This document shows, piece by piece, positions 6,720 through 63,606 of a DNA stretch of 64,000 nt. The notes beneath the pieces were generated by a model, which ran no database searches, had not been told where the DNA came from, and saw nothing but the letters and a program-made list of their open reading frames with translations. Source of the DNA: Capitulum mitella. Its lineage: Eukaryota; Arthropoda; Thecostraca; Pollicipedomorpha; Pollicipedidae. Location of the stretch: NCBI GenBank assembly GCA_030062745.1, contig CP099839.1:7844618-7908617 (forward strand), in the 5' to 3' direction. The number at the start of each line of letters is the position of its first letter. The first letter of the stretch is position 1. Position numbers and translations under genes: made by a program.

Positions 6720-8206
6720 CCCGCGACCGCCTGGCAGGTGTCAAAAAGGCATCCCCGCTATCTGAGGATCTAACTGTCGGATCTGTGCCGGTCTACCATC
6801 AGTCGATGACCCCGAGTCTTGCGATTCAGAAAATATTATGTTAGCTCTGGTCACGCCACAGGTCACGTAAAAGGCACAACACGACATCGGTTTGTACCTC
6901 AAATCAACGGTAATAGTGGTCTTCGAGCCTTTAATTGGGCATCAAACGAAAGGCCACGGTCTTCTGCATCCAATGCGTGCCAGTATGCCGAAAAATACCA
7001 GGTCAAGGTCACCCTGGGTAAGACGAAATATTTATGTTACTCTACATGCCAAAAACCGATACTCGCGGCCGTTTTGATCTACGTGACAAACGAATGAAAG
7101 TGAAACTTTCTCATGATCAGTTTTTCATTACCTCAGTTTCATCCAGTCAAGGTCAATCTAGGTTAGGTCAGATATGATTGCTTTACTCTTCCTGAGAAAG
7201 AGCAAAACATTACTCGCTGCGATTCTTAAATGCGTCAAGTACAGAACTGGAATGATATCTCGTAATAATTAAATATGCTCTGTCTGTTCTTTAGCGGGTC
7301 AAGGTCAAGCCAGGTCAGAGCAGTTAGTCATTTTCTTTTTCTGACTAGGGACAATAATTGCTGTCTGCTACTGCTGAACGATCTTCCACAGATACTGTTG
7401 CATTTCATTTCGTTTGACACCTACCTATGTCGTGACCTGACTTGACATGACCTCACTTTGCATTTGGTGAACCTTGCTAAAAAGCGTTTATAGATTTGCT
7501 TGTCTGACTTGAACGATGGGGAAAGTGAGCAGTCACAACTTCTGTCGACCATAATCACGTAGCCAGGATTCTCCTCGGGGGGGGGGGGGCAAATGTCAAA
7601 TTTTGTCGTATGCCACTGGCATGAGGTGGGGTTTCGGTGAAAAAAAACAGCAATGTAATGTAATTTATATCATGTTTAACGCCCAGGAAAACATATAATG
7701 CTTCCTTTTGCAACATCTATATGATCACTATTACCTATTCCTGCAAAATCGCCAGACATCCAGCGTAGACCGCTTGGCTCAGGGGTAGCCATGGCCCTCG
7801 TGCCCCCCTTGGCTACGTTCCTGATCGACCACAATGCGAGTCGGTTCAATTGCTATCATGCATGTGACCTAGCATGACTTCTAATGTTGACATGTTGCGA
7901 TTGTATATCTTTTAAGGGTACATTTCCTATGCAAATCCAAATTGTCCATGCATTATACTCGCAAATATTATAAAAAAGCATGTTCGTGCCACCGCCTGAA
8001 CAACCGGAAACAAGCATGCAAGGGTTCACTTATGACGTCATATTGCCGTGACCTGATCTAGCATGAAAAAGATTTTGATCTCAAAATATGTAGAATTGAT
8101 TGCTTGAAAGGTACTGAAGATTTGGTTGGGCTGACTCAAACGGCTCAGAAGTTATTCAAGAAAATCCGAAGTGTGCCTTTTATGACACCCCCCAGGCGAT
8201 GCCGGG
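6720..8206. mobile_element. piggyBac-like non-autonomous element (about 1.5 kb)
   Basis: The left end (CCCGCGACCGCCTGG, then GGTGTCAAAAAGGCA) is an imperfect inverted copy of the right end (TGCCTTTTATGACACC, then CCAGGCGATGCCGGG). The right end abuts TTAA at 8207-8210; the matching left site reads TATA at 6716-6719, with intact TTAA-CCCG copies just outside it at 6694 and 6704. CCC...GGG termini at TTAA fit the piggyBac superfamily. No transposase is present. The interior is rich in AGGTCA motifs and carries a younger hAT-like MITE at 7552-7823. Confidence 0.55.
7552..7823. mobile_element. hAT-like MITE, copy 1 (about 272 bp)
   Basis: Begins ...CACGTAGCCAGGATTC followed by a long G run and ends ...CTTGGCTACGTTCCTG, so the ends are inverted repeats. 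It is flanked by near-identical 8-bp duplications (gtcgacca at 7544-7551, atcgacca at 7824-7831). The interior is collinear with the copies at 58.5 and 58.8 kb, including gtagaccgcttggctcagg near the right end. No coding capacity. Confidence 0.8.
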
Positions 8207-20969: not shown

Positions 20970-22667
20970 ATCGGCATCTGTGGAAAATTGCAGTTTCTTG
21001 ATGTCGAAACTAGAGAATAGTAGTATGCTATGCTAAGGATAGCATCCAAAACTCTTGTGAAAATGCATGAAGCTGATGCTTGATGAACAATCACATTCAC
21101 TGACGTGGGGGAATTTTCAAAATTGATTCAGCCAGAATCATTTTTGATGCATTGTTCTTTCCATGCAGCAACATACAGTTTAAGTATTTATTCAGAGGTG
21201 ATAGAGTTGCTGTTCCATTGGTCAGATGGCTGCCCTCTGTGCTCTTTGGATTGGTAGTGTTATGTATTTTTTTCACTAAATAGCATTCTGGTACTATTAT
21301 TATACAATTTTATATTGATTATTAGACAAAATTTCCACATTTGTCAGAAATGCATTTTTCAAGTATGGATTTATGTAATATCTCCTGACTCAGTTATGAA
21401 TATGCAACTTTAAGTATCATTGTTAGTGGAACCATTTCATTCTTGGTTTATTCAAAGGGAGCACATATCCTCTATCATAAAAAGTTTGCAGCACATGCTA
21501 TATTTCCTTAAATGATGAGGTGAGCTGTCACAAATAACATCTCTGTAGGCACTGCCATCCCTTAAGCTGTCATCATAGGAAACATTTTTGACAGTGTTTT
21601 GCAGCAGAAGTTGATTCTAGAATTTCCTTTGTTTTGATATGTTTTTCTTTTTGATTTAGGATTGATACATGTTCATAAAATGTTTACATTAATCTGAGGT
21701 CAGGATATTAAAACATGCTTCTGGAAACTCATAGTGCCAGTATGCTGATGATAATGCATTGTGCTGCAGTTCTAAACCTTGCTTATGGGTAGGAGTCATA
21801 TATGCATGTCATGCATCATATGTAGCAGTAATCAGGTGTGGGTAAACACAGAATTGGTTGTTTGAGACCTTTACATATATGTAACTTAAAATATGGAAAG
21901 TGTATTTTAAGTTAACTCTCAGTTGAAAATTGTCTTAAAGGACAGTACTTAAGCTCATTTGGCCAAAATTTTCAGGAATTGGTTGGTTGTTTGGTTTGGT
22001 TTAGGGTGCACAGCTACTTGGACTCAAGTATCCATGTCTAGTCCACACTATATGTGTCACCATGAGAGCTAGAGTTGAACCCACAACCATGCAGTTATGA
22101 ACCCGAACCTGTGTCCACTTATGAGGACAAACTTTCCAAGGACCAATGGAAGAGGGTAAACATGAAATATGAATTTCCTGGCAAAAGTTTCCCAAGAAAA
22201 CTCTGAGGAAATGGCTCTTCCTGTCTTTATGTGGTCCTCAGAAGACCTGGCCAGACAAGCCAGAATATTTTTCTTAATATGCAGGTGTTTGTTACCCATA
22301 AATCTTTGTAAAACTTTGTAGCTGATTGCATTTTCCCAATAAAATGTTCATTTTTCATCAGAAATGATGGGATGCATTGTGATAATTGTGTATTCTTAGA
22401 AATCATTTAGGCAATTGCCTTTTTCTTTTGAAGCCATTGTTAGCATAGGTGCTTTAAAAAGGCACTTTTGGAGGTCATGACCCAGACTACCTTTAGGCCA
22501 AGTAAGAGAGCATGTTAGTTTGACAGTTGCTGTTTTTGTTGTTCAGGGACAAAACATCTCCCAAACTACTCTCTTAGAGTAGATACTTCTGCAAGTGTAA
22601 ACTGTTTGATAACAGGTATGTTTGTTTTTCAGGACCTTTGCCCATTTGACATAACATGGAGGAGGCC
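20970..22667. other. CpG-depleted block in hexokinase intron 1
   Basis: From 21,106 to 22,667 I see one CpG (near 22,100), while TpG and CpA are common. DNA on both sides is CpG-rich. The block starts just after the putative 5' non-coding exon and ends within the first coding exon. It includes a retroelement tail in which CpG sites of the related copy at 38.96 kb read as CpA. Confidence 0.8.
21978..22160 (-). mobile_element. Retroelement 3' end with (CCAAA/CCAA)n tail, minus strand
   Basis: Read on the minus strand it ends gtgcaccctaaaccaaacc followed by more CCAA units. This is a diverged version of the 38.95-kb tail (gtgcgcccctaagccccaat plus ACCA units). A possible tRNA-type B box (gtgggttcaactc, minus strand) lies near 22,080, so it could be a SINE sharing its tail with a LINE. 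Confidence 0.5.
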
Positions 22668-25600
22668 CGCAGAAAGGTAATTCGATTCTTATTTAGATCG
22701 TATTTACAGTTTTGTGATCTCATGGGCGCTCATGCTAGAGGTTCTTGACTCGGTAAGGTTTTTGTACCCAGTGCAAGCATGAAGGCAGCAAGAAGCATGA
22801 AACTTGCAGCAGTAGTGCATGTTTTACATCGTTTTACGTTGTACCGTGATCGGTAGCTCGGTTGAAAGAGCGCGTTCTCCCTGTCCTGGCAGGACGGCTT
22901 GGAGTCGTCCTGGCGCTCGATATTTGGCTCGGGGTCACCTGGCAGCTGGTCAGCCCAGGGTCAAACTGACTACCACGCGGTCGTGTCACACGCTTTTCGG
23001 CACAAAGCGTTCGGTTTTCGCTCTTCGTCACATGCTTTTCGGTTAAGCGTTCGCATTGAAATCACGTTTTGGTCAAAGTGGCCAGAAACGAGTTTGGTCA
23101 AAGACTGGTTACTTCGAATTATCCTGGTCAGGTGTTATAGTCGGAGTCTATGCAGTACGCTTTGCCCAGCACGGTCTGCGATCTATATGATTGTCCTACA
23201 AAACCATTCGTATCAGTTTTATAAAAATAAGACCTTCCGCAAAAATTTCAAAACCTGTGGATGTCATCCCAGTGGTCCTTTATGTTTGTAAGGAGAGAAT
23301 GGAAAAGTTGAAGTGTGCTAGGGAGTCGAAGGAAGAAAAGCAAAAAACAAAAAACGGAAAATGGATCTGTAACTCAGCCTCGTAAAACGTACATTCCATT
23401 TCCCACCGAGCTCTCCTGAAGCCAGTCTTAATGAAGAGTTATTTTTGCCGTTTTGTTGAAATTGCGCTAGATGTGACCTCAAAGCCCAGTCAGTTTCTAC
23501 CTAGGCAAGACGGAGACCAGAGTCCTCCTAAAGCCTGGCGCCGCGGGCTTCGGTCCACGGAGGACAGACGAACGCACGAGCGCGCCACACCCCGAGATCC
23601 CGAACACAGCTGGCACTGAAGGCACCTTATTGCTCCACTGAGTAAGGTCACCCATGAGCATACCGCTTGCTTCCATGACGCTGCTGCGGGTTGCAGGATC
23701 CAAACACGGTTTAGCAAGGCTCTTTTCCTGTTTCAGCTCTGGAGGTAATGAGGTCGCAAAAATGCATGTCTCTGTGCAGTTTATTGCATAGTAACTAGCA
23801 CTGCGGAACATTTGAGTAAAAGATGTTAACAGAAGTTTTCGTCACGCCGCTTGGAATCTCGGAAGTTTGTGCGTGGTTCAACATCCCATAAGTTGGGATT
23901 AGGAGGCGTATTGACAGAATTCTCGTGTGTGATATGTTTTCGACGTTTTACGGATTGGATTAATTTACCACAAGGACTGGAACGGCCTCCGTTTTTCGTT
24001 GTGTCTGCGATAGTTGCCTCACTAGATTAGAAAAAGCGAGTTGATCAAGAATTTAACACCACGTGAGGAGACGGCGGAGAAGCTTTCAAAAAATATTGCT
24101 CGGAGCCCAACACGATTGCGACCTCATTACGTCCAACAGGAAAAGAACCTTGCTAAACCATGTTTGGATCCTGTAACCCGCAGCAGCGTCGTGAGAGCAA
24201 GCGGTATGCTCATGGGTGACCCTACTCAGTAGTGCAATCAGGTGCCTCTCAGTGCCAGCTGTGTTCGGGATCCCGGGGTGTGGCGCGCTCGTGTGTTCGT
24301 CTGTCCTCCGTGGACCGCAGCCCGCGGCGCCAGGCGTTAGGACTCCGGTCGCCGTCTTGCTCAGGTAGAAACTGCCTGGGCCCGTGGCCCTCTGGCAGTG
24401 ATTATATCCAATCAGGGGTGGTTGAGGGCGACGGGAACTGGCGCGGAATTCCCGTTACCTGATTTATGCCGAACGAACAGTTCCTCCACCGACTTCATTT
24501 TTTCTGGCCCGTTTTTCTCTTTGAGAGTCCTGTGTTCGTCAGACCTGTACGCGTTCGGCCTTACGATAGTAATTTGTCTTGTCAGCGTGATGCTGTTTGC
24601 CTACTTTATGCTGCTATTGCCGTGAGCTTCAAGCGCGTAGATCCGTCAGGCGATAAGCAGATTAGCGATAAGTCTGGACTACTCTGTGAGTTTTTCGTGA
24701 CCTCGGCTGGCTTCCTCCTTATCTGATTTTATTTTTTTGTTTGATCGCACGTTTTATTGGCTAGCTATCTCCTCTTTTCGTTCCACTGAAACAGGTTTCC
24801 TCGCGAGATGTATTGTTGACAATGGGGGCGAGTATTTCGTTCTTGTCCATCTGTGGATTGTTCGGATTTGGTACTGAAGCTAGAGCAAGTACAGCCGTGC
24901 CATGTAATCGGTACTTACGTCCGGAAATTGATCAATATTTTGTGGCAAGGGATTAGTGCGGTGTCTGGAAATGCACTTCAAACCGGGGTCCCGCAGGAAG
25001 GATAAAGGCATCAACTCTGCAAAGTCGTTGTGTTGGTGGTTTAAGTTGTCCTCTTGGCCATGATAGCAATGGTGATTTTTTTATTTTATCGTCGTGGTAA
25101 AAAGGTGTTCAGCTTGTGTGTCATTGCGTTCATTTGTATGCGACGAGGCACGGGCGTCACCGGTGGTACTTAGGCGGCTCACTCTTCATGTTAAAGTTTT
25201 ACTAGACTATCCGGGGTGTTTTTCAAAGGATGGAAATTTAGTACATTTGGAAATGCCAGTTGTGGCTAGTCTCCAACCACACGAATTTTTTTCCCCGTTT
25301 TTTTCTTGCGAAAAATCATCGTTCCTTTGGAGGTAGAAGATGCTGGCCTCAACAGAAAATCGCAGAGAAAGTTTTTTTGTCGCAGTCGATATTTTTATTC
25401 CGGGAACTCGAGCGAGCGTCGCATGACTCCCTCCGGCGGCGGTGCACAAATCACGGGCCTGCGTCTCTGTCCTGCTGAAAGGGTGAGGCACTGCATCTCA
25501 TGAAGTGAGCCAGGTCCGGGGAGCCCGCGGCCCCTGGGAACGAACAGTCACCGCTTCCGTGTGCCGTAGTCGCACTGAACGATGACTAGCGGGGAGGTCC

Positions 25601-55892: not shown

Positions 55893-56594
55893 CATATATA
55901 ACACTGTCACAAGAGGACTGGAAAACAAAAAAAAAATGTCTCCAATGGAGAAATTCAGTCAAAGCTGTTTGCTCTCAAATGCATTAATGGGCTTACCTCT
56001 TTATTTATTGGTGGGTCGTGCTTCGCGATAAAGTGTCATACAACATGAGATGTTGTCGGATGTGGTGACCTCTAAAGCAGGTTCATGGTGTTAAGAATGC
56101 CGCGGAGGTGTCCTTCACAGCTCAGACGGGTCCCTTGCAGGTCAGCGAGGATTCCGAGGCATGCCTTATACGTAGAGGTACGCAAAGGGGAGAAACGCGT
56201 CCCGCGGAGGTGAAAAATTAAATCAGAACTGTTCGCTCTCAGTTGCCTTTATGGACACCAGTTTCAGTTTCTTACAGAATGCCACAGTGTTAAATGCTAT
56301 CGAATATGACAGGTTCTTCTGTGGGTTCATGCTGTTTATAGGTTCGTGGAGACATAGGTATAATCTTTGCGGGGGCTACGGGGACAGGTCACCCGTAGTT
56401 TTCCAGAAATGGTGATGTGTCCCCCCAATTTTTAAGGCAACAAACAGATATTTCCGATCGGCAACATAATGTCTTGAACTTTCAAATGTAGCAAACTGCA
56501 TTTCAACCGTAGTTTGTCATAGAACGTCCGGAAAAGTTATTTTTACTCCTGCCCTACACCCATTTTTGGTGGACTACAGCCAGCTTGTCCCCCT
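55890..56594. other. Intergenic, no gene recognised
   Basis: Mixed repeat-like DNA. An outlying unit of the next array (gggtcccttgcaggtcagcgagg) is at 56,128. Confidence 0.4.
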
Positions 56595-57190
56595 TATTTC
56601 TTAACCGTGGCTTCACCCTTGCAAGGATGCCTCCTTCACAATTTAGCACGGGTACCTTATAGGCCAGCAATGATCCTGCTCACAGGTCAGCAAGGGTCCC
56701 TTTGCTGCAGAGAGAACACGATGACTTTTAAAAGGGGTCAGTGCTGTATACAGACCAGCGGGTGTCTCTTCAGAGGGACAGGGACCCTCTATGCACTGTC
56801 AGGTGTAGACCACTCTGCAGGACTCCATGAGCCCCTTTACAATCCGGCAGTTGCAAGGGCTCTTTCAGAGACGAGCAGGGGCCCTTCAGGGGCCAGCTTT
56901 TGGGGGCTCTTTACAGGGCAGCCTCTACAGGCCCGTGGGGACCTCTCTACCGGCCGACGGCCCCTTTAGAGGCCGACAGAAGGCCATGCAAAGCCTCTTG
57001 GCTTTATAATTAATCATCTTTTGTCGGTCGGCAAGGGTCCCTATATGGACCAGCAGGAAGCCTTTTATAAACTAGCATGGGACCTCCTTATAGGGCCCCT
57101 ATGTAAAGACGTCAGGAGCCCTCTGCAAACCGGCAGGGGCTGTCTGTGCAAGCCGGAATAGGTGCCTCTTCCACGTGCCAGCATGACCCC
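56595..57190. repeat. Degenerate 30-45 bp tandem repeat
   Basis: Recurring pieces of the form (a)agggtccctt.t..ag(g)ccagca(g) (for example ggtcagcaagggtccctttg, ggccgacggcccctttagag, tcggcaagggtccctatatg). It is open in places but without a recognisable protein. Confidence 0.65.
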
Positions 57191-57349
57191 CTTAGCTAAT
57201 AAAGCAGCCTCATCTAGTGAGTAGTCATCCCTGAGAAGAACGAAATTAAAGGCCCCTTATAATGGTGCTCCTTGCCCGAGGGGTCCCAAAGCAGATAATT
57301 CGGAAAATCCTTATGCGTTATGTGCGGAAAGGCTCCTTTCAGCCCAATA

Positions 57350-57680
57350 TGGGCGTAGGGATGGGGGAGGGGAGAAAGGAGACCACGGTCCCCACGTTTT
57401 GGGAAATTTAACATTAATCCTATGGGGAAAAAACGCCCCTGGCTCCCCCCACACTTTTCCTGGATGTTCCTACGCCTCTGCAACCCAAATCCAGGGCCCC
57501 TCCGCACAGTGCGCGGAGGGAACCCTGGATTTTGGCCGGGAACCGTGGCGGCGGAAACGGGGACAGTGCCCTTTATGGCGAAATTTAGGATTAATCCTAT
57601 GGCGTTGCATGAACAGAAATGGCTCAACAAGTAGCCGGTGCCTTCCCCCATCGCCGGAGCACGCTCCTCCACTGGTGGCC
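57350..57680. repeat. Dispersed repeat, fuller copy of the 10.5-kb family
   Basis: A left edge gggcgtagggatgggggagg and an internal inverted edge ggatgttcctacgcc at 57,465 bracket about 125 bp. The part 57,560-57,668 matches GH3 intron 2 (10,561-10,680). Two similar aaattta..attaatcctatgg blocks occur at 57,403 and 57,580. Confidence 0.65.
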
Positions 57681-58544: not shown

Positions 58545-58811
58545 CAGGCACGTAGCCAGGATTCTCCTCAGGGGGGGGGGGCAAATATCAAATTTTCTTC
58601 ATATGCCACAGGCACATGATAAAATTTTCAAGAAAAGGTAACAATTTTAGGCAATTTATCTCATACTTAATGTACAGCAAAACATACAATGTTTCTTTTT
58701 CCAACATAGATATGATCACTATTACGTATTGATGCGAAATCGCCGTGAATTTAGTGTAGACCGCTTGGCTCAGGGGGGGGGCATGGCCCCATGCCCTTGG
58801 CTACGTCCCTG
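58545..58811. mobile_element. hAT-like MITE, copy 2 (267 bp) with exact 8-bp target duplication
   Basis: CAGGCACGTAGCCAGG ... CTTGGCTACGTCCCTG, flanked on both sides by aaacagcc (58,537-58,544 and 58,812-58,819). The 8-bp duplication and CA...TG ends identify the hAT superfamily. No transposase. Confidence 0.9.
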
Positions 58812-58834
58812 AAACAGCCAGACATTCGCTTGGA

Positions 58835-59088
58835 AAGCACATAGCCAGGATTTTTCTCGGGGGGGGGGTGTCATATGCCACCTGCATAGGACAGAATTCA
58901 TTTAGGAAAGAGCAGCAATTTTATAGGAATTGGCCTCATATTTCATGCACATGAAAAGATATGTTTGTTTTTACATTATACGTATGATCACTATTCTGTA
59001 TTCCTGTAAAATCGCCTAATATCTACTGCAGACCGCGTGGCTCGGGGGAGGCAATGGCCCCATGGCCCTCCCCCTTGGCTACGTGCTT
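58835..59088. mobile_element. hAT-like MITE, copy 3 (about 254 bp)
   Basis: Same family 24 bp downstream of copy 2: AAGCACATAGCCAGG at the left, CTTGGCTACGTGCTT at the right, collinear interior (cctgtaaaatcgcc, gcagaccgcgtggctc). No clean target duplication was seen. Confidence 0.8.
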
Positions 59089-59415
59089 GCCTGGTAGCAA
59101 GCTGCGCTTCTCGATTAAAGCGATTATTTCTCTGATGATCATGACGTCATTTATTTGCATGTACACTTGGGATACAAAACATACGCACAACCGCCGCGAA
59201 TCACTCGAGTTATAGCGCGCTTTCACGTGAGTGGGCTAAAAGTAGGTATGAGGTTGTGCGGTGATTTTGTTGGCTGAATGATGTCGATTGCTACTTCATG
59301 TGATGTATTCACTTTTAGACGCAAAGACTTATATTCTTATGCTTTCCTGGGCGTTTTTCTCGCTATGGAGACGCGAAACGTCGTGCAGCATTTCTTATAA
59401 AGCCAAGCTGCGATG
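59089..59415. other. CpG-containing stretch upstream of SNX4, possible promoter
   Basis: CpG dinucleotides are common here and stop at about 59,413. The abrupt change suggests the SNX4 transcription start lies near 59.2-59.4 kb. No TATA box or CCAAT box is clear. Confidence 0.3.
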
Positions 59416-61194
59416 AAAAGGCAATAGATGAATGTTAAACAGAAGATGCAGTAAAGATACTGTCTTGTCATGTGTTCAAAATTCTGTAAGATATGTGCCA
59501 ATGTGTGAGACTTTGTTGGCAGCTCATGCAGTGCATGTTGTCAAGTTTTGTACAGATACCATAGGCATTAAAGTGAGGAATTCTGCAATCAGTACAAAAA
59601 TGAGGGCCTCCCCTGTAGAGCCAGAAATGAGGGAAAAGCTTCCTTGGTCAGCCATGGACTATTGCAGACCTTTATGCATGTCTGTGCCCACAAATTCTTG
59701 TATACAAAGAATACATGATTATATCTATTGAACTGCAAGTGTATTTCTGGAAATGCAGTTTATTGTATTTCTTATAACTACTGTGTTTTGACCTCTTCCT
59801 AGTTTGCTACCCTCAGTAATGTTATTTTGTGTAGTTATATTGGATTTCTTTCATTGATAGATATATTATGATTTTGTTTGTTTAGAATTGTGCTTTTATC
59901 TCATATTCAGTTTTTTATTTGGTATCTTCATCTATTTCATCATAGTTTCCATGTTACATATCCTTTGCCTGTTTGTTCAGTTTTTGCATTTTTATTCTTC
60001 TGTTTTCACATTTACTTTTGTAACATTTTCCCTTCACTATTGATCCATGTCACAAAGGAAATAATGAAATTATTGACATAATAATGAGGACACTATGGAT
60101 CAGGGTTGGAAATTTGTTTTTTCTCTTCAATGTTAAAGTATAATTTTGTTTTGGAGCACACAAATTTTCAAAGAATAATACTGGCTGTTTTGTGTGGGAT
60201 ATAATGTTTTTTATATATATATATATGAGTAATATAAGTTGGCATTCTGGGTGTTAATCAGTCTTGGCATGATACCTTCTTAATGAATGGAGACAGAGTC
60301 ACTTTCATGCAGAGATGGAAATTTATCAGCATCATTATAATGTAGCTTTTTGATGGTGGGACATAAGATTTTGAATTAGCAAATGTTTTTGGAGCACATA
60401 TTTCCTGATGTCCTTTGACATTAAAAAAGAACACCTTGTCTAGCCTTGCTGAGAAAAGCAATAAGCCTTGATCATTCTTGAATGTTTTAATCAACATAAA
60501 AAAATATTGTAAAAATTACTAAAGAAACATGGGGAAATAATTTGCCAACATTCCTTATGTAATGATTTGGATTGTGCTGCAGTGACAAAATGGCCTGTTT
60601 TTGAAAAAAAAAGACTGTTTATTCCCCTTTGTTCAGCCAAGGTGTAAGAAAGTCCTTAAAAAGCATCTCTTCATTGCATTTGGTGCTATGAATGTAATAT
60701 TGTATTGTTTTAGTGTGGTGTGGTGCATCTCATTGGTAGAAATACCTGTTATAGACTTTGAAAGTTGATGTACCAAGTTTTGTAATATTTTTCTCTCAGA
60801 GAAATCAGGTGACTAATAGCCAAAACACAGCATGGAGGATGGCCTAAATGAAAGCCAGTCTGCTGATTTGGAGTCTTCTGCATCTCCTGGTGACAAAGTG
60901 ACAGCAGAAACACCTCCAAGAATGGAAAATGTTAAAACAGGTGGATCTTACAAGGTGAGGTACTGCTTACAGACATTTGATGGCTATGGATAGTTACCAC
61001 TTTGTGCATCTCAAAGCTTATGATGTCATTTTTTAAATCACTACAATGACAAAACATGTGATTGCATTTGATCATCATGTTACTTGGTTTAAAATGGTAC
61101 ATGTTATGTTTTGCTGACATGTGTTTCACAGTTATGATGTGGATGTTGTAATATGTACATGACTTGGAATGATTCAGACATCAAGGACATTTTA
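59416..61194. other. CpG-free block over the 5' part of SNX4
   Basis: No CpG was seen by eye in about 1.78 kb, including the first coding exon (60,832-60,954), while TpG/CpA are abundant. CpG reappears at 61,195, and the exon at 61,234 is CpG-dense. Confidence 0.85.
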
Positions 61195-63606
61195 CGGTCT
61201 GGTTGCTGAAACGTGAGCATGTTTTGCTGTCAGGAGCCTCTCTCGTCTGTGATGGAGATCTCTGTGTCCGAGTCGGAGCGGCGCTACAATGGTGCCATCA
61301 ACCTCAACGAGTACTACACGGCGTACCTGATCGAGACGCGCGTCACCGACCCCGCCTTCCACGGCGCACCGTCTCGGCTGGGCGCCCTCTGGCGGCGCTA
61401 CAGCGAGTTCGAGACGCTGGCCGGCTACCTGGCCGAGGCGTACCCGTTCGTCGTGGTGCCGCCGCTGCCCGAGAAGCGCGCCTCGCACGTCTGGCAGAAG
61501 CTGGCCACCGACCCGCTCGACTCGGAGTTCATCGACCGCCGCCGCGTTGGCCTCGAGGTCGGTGGTGTCGGGCGCCCGCCGGGCCGCGGGTACAGTGCCC
61601 GGCCAGCGGTGATGTGGTGGAACTTTGAGAAGCGCTTCCCCCTGTCACGTTCTGTCACTGCTGCTTATGCCTTTTGTGTTCCAGTTCTGATATTTGCATG
61701 GGTCTGGCAACTCACGGAGAGCCTAGGAGCCTAGGATGGCAGTCCCATCAACGTTCAGAAGGCACGTTCAGCCATGGCCGTCTGTGGACTGGCATAGCGT
61801 GATTCAACATTTGGGCTGTTTCAGAGTTTCCTGTTGCGCGTGGCATCTCATCCGATTTTATCGTGGGACCCTATCTTCATGCGATTTATTCAGGACGAAA
61901 GAGACTGGAAAGAGATTGTAACTGGTACTGGTAAGTATGCTGTGGTATACATCTCTTTTGTGATGACCATAATTTTCTGTTCTTTGCGGTACTCGGTGTG
62001 TTCCACATATGTTTCGCCGTGTCTCGTGTAGTGCTGTGAATTGAAAGGTTCACGAAACATCGTCAGCGTCGTTAACAAAAGCATCGTCAGCAAAAGTGGA
62101 TATGTTGCAGGCTATTTGGAGAAGGTGGAAAGACAGTTGAAATCCCTGAATGCCACCATCCGCGTGAAGAAAGGGGACAGCCGGTTTGATGAACTGCTTA
62201 GCTATGGAAAAGAGCTCGAGGTTGGTTACTCTAAAAACAAAGTTCATTGCTAGACTGGGATTTTAGTCCATTACATTTGCTTCAGAACTGTGAACCTGAC
62301 AGCCAAGGTTTCAGCTGGCGAAACAGTGTAATCGTGGAGGATGTGCATAAAGGAATTGCATCGTTGAATCTGTTGTAGGCGAAATTTAAAGCCTTCGAGC
62401 GTATGTCTCGTTGTCGAGTGTGGCGTTTCAGTGTGTATGCATTTGTCTTGGGCTCGGTTACCGCCAGTTTCCGTTGACACCGGCCGGCGTCATGGCTGAA
62501 AAGAAGCTCTGCAGAGATTATAAAGAGCGCCCCCTGCCGCGAGAGACGCCGGTCGTCCGGTGCGTCGTCATGACAGTTTGCGTTGTTGTCCGGGTTCTCC
62601 GACAGCTGGATCATCGGACAGTTTTGATCCAGTCAGCTGGAAAGTCTTGCAGATTGTTCACGGTCCTCTTTTATTTTGTTTGTTTTTCATTTTTATGCCT
62701 CACGCGGCTGAATCAAACTGAATATTAGCCGTCGACCTGAAAGTGCAAAGCTAGCGGAGCCGCAGGCCAAACTCCTGGTCGCATCCCAGCGACCGGTGAG
62801 ATATTCGACAGCTCCCCTATGTCGAAAGACGCCGGCGCTGACGCTCGCGGACCGCGCGTTCGGCGCCGACCGACGGCAGAGTCGGGCGGCCGGCGTCGAC
62901 GTCGGCCGTGCCCGGCGGCCAGGTCGTGACGGCGCTGCCATCGCCGGCAGACGCACCTGACGAACGTGCTACGCTCGCGGGCCCGCCTGACGGACGCGAC
63001 GCACGCCATCCGGCGCCAGCACGCCAACTACGGCCGCGTGCTCAGCGAGTGGTCGGCCATCGAGACGCGCATGGGCGACGGCCTTCAGCGCGCCGGCCAC
63101 TACATGGACGCGCACGCGGCCAGCATCGACGCCTTCATCGAGGAAGAGGAGGTGACGACGGCCGGGCGGGAGGCCGCCCTGGCGTCCGGCCGATTGGGGC
63201 GTCCTGGCGCTGATCGTGGGGATGCGGTGGAGCCGGAGCTGGTTCGTCATGGCGAGCTGCCGCGCTGGTCGGGATCAGGCTTGACTGGCGTCGTGGACGA
63301 TGAATTGGCTGTGCGGCTGGGGCCGCGGGTTGATTCGTTGACGACTTTCGTTGGATTCTTGGCTGGGCGCCTACAGATGATGGTCTCGGGTAGTTGACGG
63401 CACTTTAGACATTCGTGCCGTGACCGGGTTTTGACCAGCGCCTCTTGCTCTCTCTCAGGTGTACATTGACCAGCTTAAGGAGTACATGTACTATGCGGCG
63501 GCGCTGCAGGCAGTGTGCCACAAGTACACCACGATGCAGTATCAGCTGGAGCGGCTGGACGATTCGCTGGCAGCGCTCTCCCATCGTCGCGAGAGCGCGC
63601 TGCAAG
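60832..63606 (+). CDS. SNX4: Sorting nexin 4, first six coding exons (3' part outside window)
   Basis: Exons: 60832-60954, 61234-61557, 61825-61930, 62111-62220, 62951-63151, 63459-63606; phases join (0, 0, 1, 0, 0) and the last donor is phase 1. The exon with the start appears to begin at acceptor 60,799. The protein starts MEDGLNESQSADLESS (acidic, disordered), then a PX domain (MEISVSESERRYNG..., LWRRYSEFETL, VVVPPLPEKRASHVW, FIDRRRVGLE) that binds phosphatidylinositol 3-phosphate on early endosomes. The SNX4-type BAR region follows (ANYGRVLSEWSAIETRMGDG, YIDQLKEYMYYAAALQAVC, MQYQLERL). SNX4 drives endosome-to-plasma-membrane recycling and aids autophagy. Two donors are non-consensus (gtcggt at 61,558, gttggt at 62,221). 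About 330 residues are visible; family length is near 450, so the last exons lie beyond the window. Introns of 270-730 bp contain nothing recognised. Confidence 0.93.
62908..62959 (+). repeat. 52-bp segment spanning the SNX4 exon 5 acceptor, copy 1
   Basis: gtgcccggcggccaggtcgt...gccggcag/acgcacctg includes the true 3' splice site at 62,950. A near-identical copy is at 63,697-63,748. Confidence 0.9.

Follow-up and report, generated by a model that had tools for sequence, protein, structure and literature searches.

A CpG-free block over the start of SNX4 in a barnacle, and blocks like it elsewhere in the genome, as a probable footprint of germline CpG methylation

Why should nearly 1.8 kb at the start of a gene hold not a single CpG dinucleotide, when the sequence on either side holds as many as its composition predicts? 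The question is raised by a 64,000-nucleotide stretch of the barnacle Capitulum mitella (contig CP099839.1, at C1:7844618-7908617 in a genome whose 16 contigs total 477 Mb; hereafter the window), which carries the first part of the trafficking gene for sorting nexin 4 (SNX4). A preliminary description of this stretch had claimed that CpG is absent across 59416..61194, the first coding exon included, that TpG and CpA are plentiful there, that a CpG-dense exon follows some 40 bp downstream, and that this is the footprint of methylated-cytosine decay, with the suggestion that germline methylation is limited to the first 1.5-2 kb after the start. Here we argue that this block and others like it, which we call deserts, are probably (at a rough probability of 0.85) the mutational footprint of germline CpG methylation over a domain extending from near the gene start to 1.4-3.9 kb further on.

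The loss of CpG at SNX4 is complete. The flanking CpGs lie at 59411 and 61195, and the 1783 bp between them contain none, whereas 49.9 would follow from the frequencies of C and G within the block; the observed-to-expected ratio (o/e) after correction for GC content, for which a value near 1 had been named beforehand as contrary to the claim, is 0. The block has a GC content of 34%, compared with 50.5% for the whole window, where CpG o/e is about 1, and GpC o/e within the block is 1.14, so that the depletion is not a general shortage of C+G steps. TpG and CpA stand at 1.50 and 1.60 of expectation, and the TG+CA surplus is about 72 for a CpG deficit of about 48. When CpGs were placed by local composition over 64 kb in 2000 simulations, the longest CpG-free run had a mean of 206 bp and a maximum of 603 bp. 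A two-state model over the full window returned exactly two depleted segments, 59412-61194 and 21006-22667, and no desert was called in any of 20 block-shuffled windows. The 200 bp just outside the block hold 12 CpGs on the 5' side (9.4 expected) and 22 on the 3' side (19.2 expected).

Three parts of the gene fall within the block: an intron presumed to be 5' non-coding, the first coding exon and the greater part of the intron after it. On the forward strand, the exon model at 60832-63606 codes for the beginning of sorting nexin 4, PX domain included (residues 93-173 of the joined protein), the gene continuing beyond the window end, and the nearest named SNX4 proteins are those of Amphibalanus amphitrite (82% over 88% of the query) and Pollicipes pollicipes (93% over 56%). 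The modelled first coding exon (60832-60954) has no CpG and a GC content at third codon positions (GC3) of 0.29; its junction, K/EPL, is identical to that of the Amphibalanus protein P0031, the rest of the N-terminus being only loosely similar. The second coding exon starts 39 bp past the CpG that ends the block and has a CpG o/e of 1.27, and exons 2-6 together are CpG-normal, with 105 CpGs observed and 85.7 expected. The sequence features claimed in the preliminary description, namely the empty interval, the CpG-free first coding exon, the abundant TpG and CpA and the CpG-dense exon about 40 bp downstream, were all borne out by these counts.

Deserts recur elsewhere in the genome. Our sample comprised 75 stretches, the window among them, with a total of 354,761 bp, and gene families or a repeat guided their choice; 26 contain deserts, a proportion that is not a genome-wide rate because of this choice and because some stretches were extended toward a desert already visible. 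The 19 deserts with both edges, 325 to 3906 bp long (median 1840), contain 96 CpGs against 1485.6 expected (0.065), and the 11 that are incompletely covered contain 24 against 447.4. Ras-family genes were sampled because their first domain exon sits near the protein start; the search gave at least about 40 first-exon matches, the surroundings of 22 were examined, and 11 of these 22 gene starts have a desert, in a sampling that was partly biased, 12 loci having been extended and eight of those because a CpG-free run already showed at the locus edge. Among the four starts extended without prior sign of a desert one has a desert, and among the ten left unextended, with 1.5 kb upstream covered, two have. 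The PX domain gave 16 matches beyond that of the window, and a desert is present in three of the seven loci examined (L002, L003 and L005). The 29 repeat-centred loci, a biased stand-in for random background, include five with a desert, covering 7053 of 95,875 bp.

The position of the deserts within genes bears on the claimed extent. In nine multi-exon Ras-family genes the desert occupies 2.0-3.9 kb in the neighbourhood of the first domain exon and extends no further, 2.2-5.1 kb downstream of that exon having been covered: it ends 47-476 bp ahead of the exon in six genes, continues across domain exons in two and lies after the exon in one. In L009 and L018, where a single exon encodes the domain, it starts 190-327 bp into the domain and extends beyond it. 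In these nine multi-exon genes, as in SNX4 with its CpG-normal exons 2-6 as far as the window reaches, CpG loss is thus restricted to a region towards the 5' end, and this element of the preliminary description stands, though the proposed 1.5-2 kb is too short for blocks elsewhere, which reach 3.9 kb.

Loss of CpG from exons only or from introns only was considered, and both ideas were rejected because inside deserts the exons too are depleted. Eight exon pieces within deserts contain 6 CpGs against 57.1 expected (0.105), one of the eight being a possible exon only that extends 9 bp past the desert edge, whereas 19 exons of SNX4 and seven Ras-family genes that lie outside deserts contain 352 against 313.2. 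The block thus does not keep to exon-intron structure. The edges are abrupt: with the edge-defining CpG excluded, pooled o/e in the first 50 bp outside is already 0.83 at 11 5' edges and 0.91 at 14 3' edges, in 50-bp bins over the first 200 bp it is 0.83-1.15 and 0.91-1.08, respectively, and all bins to 800 bp outside lie at 0.81-1.15. In one set of deserts, the residual CpGs (74, o/e 0.059) are spread over the whole length and not clustered at the edges. We also tried to place the 5' edges by splice donors. Donor-like sites such as cac/GTGAGT occur 161-229 bp before four edges, but there are seven over 11 edges (up to 700 bp each) and about 7.5 would be found by chance, so that their frequency upstream of 5' edges is about the chance level and this placement was abandoned.

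If CpGs were lost from deserts by decay, related sequences inside and outside should differ at the same sites, and two comparisons bear on this. One uses a short dispersed repeat family of about 310 bp with clear ends, with at least 42 matches (the best 40 of 2329 first-look candidates scored), a copy of which lies within the SNX4 block; in the aligned part of that copy, all seven ancestral-like CpG sites are TG or CA. Among 40 copies, query included, a flank was taken as CpG-poor when at least one 250-bp side had an o/e under 0.15. Copies without any CpG make up eight of the ten with a CpG-poor flank and none of the 30 others (one-sided p = 2.5e-6), the two exceptions being the query, at a desert edge, with two CpGs and another copy with one; CpG density per 100 bp is 0.11 beside deserts and 1.51 elsewhere. 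At 12 sites where at least 10% of outside copies have CG, CG was found in 1 of 105 cases beside deserts and 63 of 329 outside, and TG or CA in 91 of 105 and 241 of 329, counts in which the outside copies are favoured because the sites were chosen on them. When each outside copy was left out in turn, CG was found in 2 of 558 cases beside deserts and 90 of 1654 outside. An enrichment of this repeat in deserts was also considered, as copies seemed common in the deserts of the loci examined first, but of the 29 best copies genome-wide (query excluded) no more than 3 have a CpG-poor flank, and the idea was dropped.

The other comparison is provided by two Ras-family duplicates, L009 and L010, which we take to be Rap2-like and which share 153 of 161 residues. 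Only L009 has a desert, 3.5 kb having been examined for the non-desert status of its partner. Over 319 aligned bp inside the L009 desert there is one CpG in L009 and 16 in L010, whereas the 207 bp before the desert edge have 11 and 12, respectively. The 16 CpG sites of L010 appear in L009 as five TG, three CA, one CG and seven others. Both the repeat copies and this pair support the claimed decay of methylated cytosine, as far as a sequence record can, and the pair also offers a natural test of what recruits the block.

The genome encodes DNA methyltransferases. The profile PF00145, whose search works on single exons, gave four matches at two places, on C2 and C4. The C2 match is a catalytic exon resembling solved DNMT1 structures (E about 1e-33), with DNMT1-RFD exons 18-24 kb away on the same strand, and the C4 locus is DNMT2, one of its two matches running into a TGA. 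No DNMT3 catalytic exon is among the four PF00145 matches of this single-exon search, and an exon on C11 matches PF17980, the ADD domain of DNMT3, above the cut-off, its best match being DNMT3A. Absence of DNA methyltransferase genes, which the preliminary description had named as an argument against methylation, is therefore not the case, DNMT1 exons and a DNMT3-type ADD exon being present. A 997-bp desert (4 CpGs, 35.2 expected) lies beside a matched DNMT2 exon, at 576-1572 of L083.

CpG depletion with TpG/CpA excess, decay between related sequences inside and outside the deserts, and DNMT1 together with a DNMT3-type ADD exon are thus found in one genome. The cause of the CpG loss looks mutational; 5-methylcytosine as its agent, in the germline and at present, we infer from the sequence record, as we do the location of transcription start sites and the factor that sets the desert edges. 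A plausible course of events is that the promoter would stay unmethylated, while DNMT1, with a DNMT3 partner, would maintain CpG methylation downstream of it in some of the genes, affecting introns as well as exons. Deamination would then convert each methylated CpG to TpG or CpA over evolutionary time. At SNX4 and the Ras-family genes a boundary would keep methylation within a block 1.4-3.9 kb long, and beyond this edge the gene body would be unmethylated and its CpGs retained.

Several observations weigh against reading deserts as a methylation footprint. Half of the sampled Ras-family starts have no desert in the DNA examined, and seven of the 16 CpGs of L010 are neither CG, TG nor CA in L009. 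The 12 repeat sites were selected on the outside copies, where 241 of 329 are also TG or CA. Away from these sites, desert-side copies have higher rates of C>T (0.101 vs 0.060) and G>A (0.097 vs 0.065), and their divergence is higher (0.144 vs 0.107, p 0.002), a difference that is not purely CpG. This extra non-CpG divergence may come from ascertainment, the two groups of copies having been gathered by different routes, and some lost CpG sites in the repeats probably went unrecognised, leaving the size of the non-CpG effect uncertain.

The raised C>T and G>A outside CpG sites would also be expected if deamination were linked to transcription and not to methylation, for instance in single-stranded non-template DNA near gene starts, and the strand composition is compatible with this explanation: in 11 of 12 complete deserts with known gene direction the sense strand has more G than C and more T than A, the exception, C5:25087516, being near zero. 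Such skews fit transcribed DNA, and in a second desert upstream of C12:7096640 both are reversed (-0.15 and -0.06), as would be expected from a divergent neighbouring gene. However, the loss is centred on CpG, GpC, CC, CT and TC not being clearly under background and TG and CA both being up, and the G skew is positive also upstream of 10 of 11 5' edges, where CpG is normal, so that we consider this explanation quite improbable. We regard it as still less probable that selection removes CpG from a regulatory region, keeping CpG-binding proteins off, for example. Sharp-edged blocks near gene starts would suit such selection, but the desert-side repeat copies too are without CpGs and have TG or CA at most matching sites, coding exons are depleted as well, and the TpG/CpA surplus roughly equals the CpG deficit. 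That foreign DNA or an inserted AT-rich sequence, and not decayed host sequence, makes up the block, as the GC content of 34% against 50.5% in the window might suggest, is scarcely credible, given the SNX4 exon model inside it with a splice junction shared with Amphibalanus; the block has no second copy in the window, and only pieces of up to about 230 bp match other loci among the matches listed.

The explanation closest to ours, unlikely in our view yet the most plausible of the alternatives, is that the footprint is historical: methylation would have acted in the germline of ancestors, and the present species would no longer methylate these blocks or would use other boundaries. CpG counts integrate over long times, our basis is a footprint in the sequence, and the desert-side repeat copies are old, about 14% from the family majority. 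On the other hand, the genome has both DNMT1 exons and the DNMT3-type ADD exon, all of these matches being free of stops, and residual CpG is very low with the edges still sharp, although CpGs released from methylation should presumably re-accumulate slowly. Methylation maintained in the germline thus remains our preferred explanation. Going one step further, we propose tentatively, and at somewhat less than even odds, that in barnacles the germline methylates a discrete block close to where the gene begins, that distance or chromatin state and not the exons determine this block, and that its edges have long been maintained with precision.

The features of the window are listed in Table 1. The presumed promoter of SNX4 contains TGACGTCA and a donor-like cac/GTGAGT, read by eye, and the transcription start is presumed there. 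Further upstream, at 56501-57500, CpG o/e is 0.39-0.48 at a GC content of 0.52-0.54 and without TpG excess, unlike in deserts. Another dispersed repeat has three copies in the window (7553-7824, 58549-58812 and 58835-59084; 68-77% identity), two of them directly 5' of the presumed SNX4 promoter. In the second desert of the window the TG+CA surplus is about 52 for a CpG deficit of about 50. It ends within a possible short exon at 22631-22676 (forward strand, MEEARRK), roughly 4 kb ahead of the place where the N-terminal exon of a hexokinase gene maps. The idea that it is the first intron of this gene was dropped, as the N-terminal exon of two Amphibalanus isoforms maps to 26915 and their common exon to 29101. 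An inverted repeat lies at 23484-23759 and 24116-24381, its arms, about 360 bp apart, having 88% identity over 277 bp.

Table 1. Deserts, SNX4 exons and associated features of the window
Feature	Position	Strand	Remarks
CpG-normal stretch, presumed promoter and transcript start	59001..59411	+	CpG o/e 1.01 and 1.46 in two 200-bp windows
CpG-free block (desert) over 5' part of SNX4	59412..61194	+	0 CpG, 49.9 expected; TG 1.50, CA 1.60
Repeat copy inside SNX4 block	60101..60448	-	Aligned part 60235-60448, further short match from 60101
SNX4 exon model inside block	60800..60954	+	Start codon 60832; coding part 60832-60954; acceptor 60799 by eye
SNX4 coding exon 2	61234..61557	+	CpG o/e 1.27, GC3 0.93; PX domain begins here; just outside block
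SNX4 coding exon 3	61825-61930	+	CpG o/e 1.12
SNX4 coding exon 4	62111-62220	+	CpG o/e 0.65
SNX4 coding exon 5	62951-63151	+	CpG o/e 1.40
SNX4 coding exon 6	63459-63606	+	CpG o/e 1.00
Second desert	21006..22667	.	2 CpG, 54.6 expected

A survey covering 138 Ecdysozoa (PMC8821070) makes no mention in its main text of Amphibalanus, Pollicipes, Cirripedia, Thecostraca or barnacle, and among the papers listed from the open-access literature none was on barnacle methylation by title or abstract start, that literature leaving subscription journals and preprints mostly or wholly outside. How gene-body methylation is kept to one part of a gene is still an open problem, and the deserts would record an answer to it in sequence. 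Their starts, their ends and the choice of genes can be read without a methylome, so that the DNA itself could serve as a map of gene methylation in the barnacle, and their edges are sharp enough to be matched with maps of nucleosomes or histone marks.

In vertebrates CpG is depleted genome-wide, with an o/e near 0.2, and promoters are unmethylated. The barnacle resembles them in that the promoter escapes and downstream sequence is depleted, but its depletion is local and deeper. Among arthropods, the sections drawn on here describe a methylation enriched in 5' exons in Nasonia vitripennis, where it fades beyond 1-2 kb of coding sequence and intronic methylated CpG amounts to 0.7% (PMC3794928), and peaking at exons 2-4 in Daphnia, where it fades from exon 4 and introns are near zero (PMC6097596). 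Both share with the barnacle footprint a gene mark near the 5' end that fades along the gene, but as described theirs lies on coding exons, whereas barnacle introns, including the presumed intron ahead of the start codon, are emptied like exons. Exon-enriched arthropod gene methylation is tied to nucleosome position in PMC7343188, whose main text lacks the word barnacle; its arthropods have a 5'-limited mark, as in the barnacle, that is exon-enriched, unlike the deserts. Two peracarid crustaceans in the same study show little exon-intron difference, and a loss of gene methylation was suggested for them (PMC7343188). In the barnacle, an exon-enriched, intron-low pattern is not found, CpG o/e being 0.065 in whole deserts and 0.105 in the exon pieces inside them, a comparison of CpG footprints and not of methylation itself.

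Crustaceans in which introns or whole genes are involved come closer in some respects. In the marbled crayfish, exons, introns and 3' untranslated regions are methylated (PMC6172769), a gene-body methylation of a gene subset, introns included, that the barnacle would share; the passages used here describe no 5'-limited block in that species, whereas barnacle depletion stops 1.4-3.9 kb in. In the copepod Eurytemora carolleeae, CpG o/e is low over whole genes, with a unimodal distribution and a mean of 0.5 (PMC11706791). There too, in the portion of the paper drawn on, crustacean CpG depletion is taken as past gene-body methylation, but at 0.5 over whole genes, compared with about 0.06 in discrete blocks and about 1 windowwide in the barnacle. 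A block close to the gene start that takes in introns as well and has lost almost all of its CpG therefore looks like a novel form of arthropod 5'-biased gene-body methylation, and if our reading is true, barnacles would have an intron-inclusive methylation domain at gene starts, beyond what the sources drawn on here describe for other arthropods.
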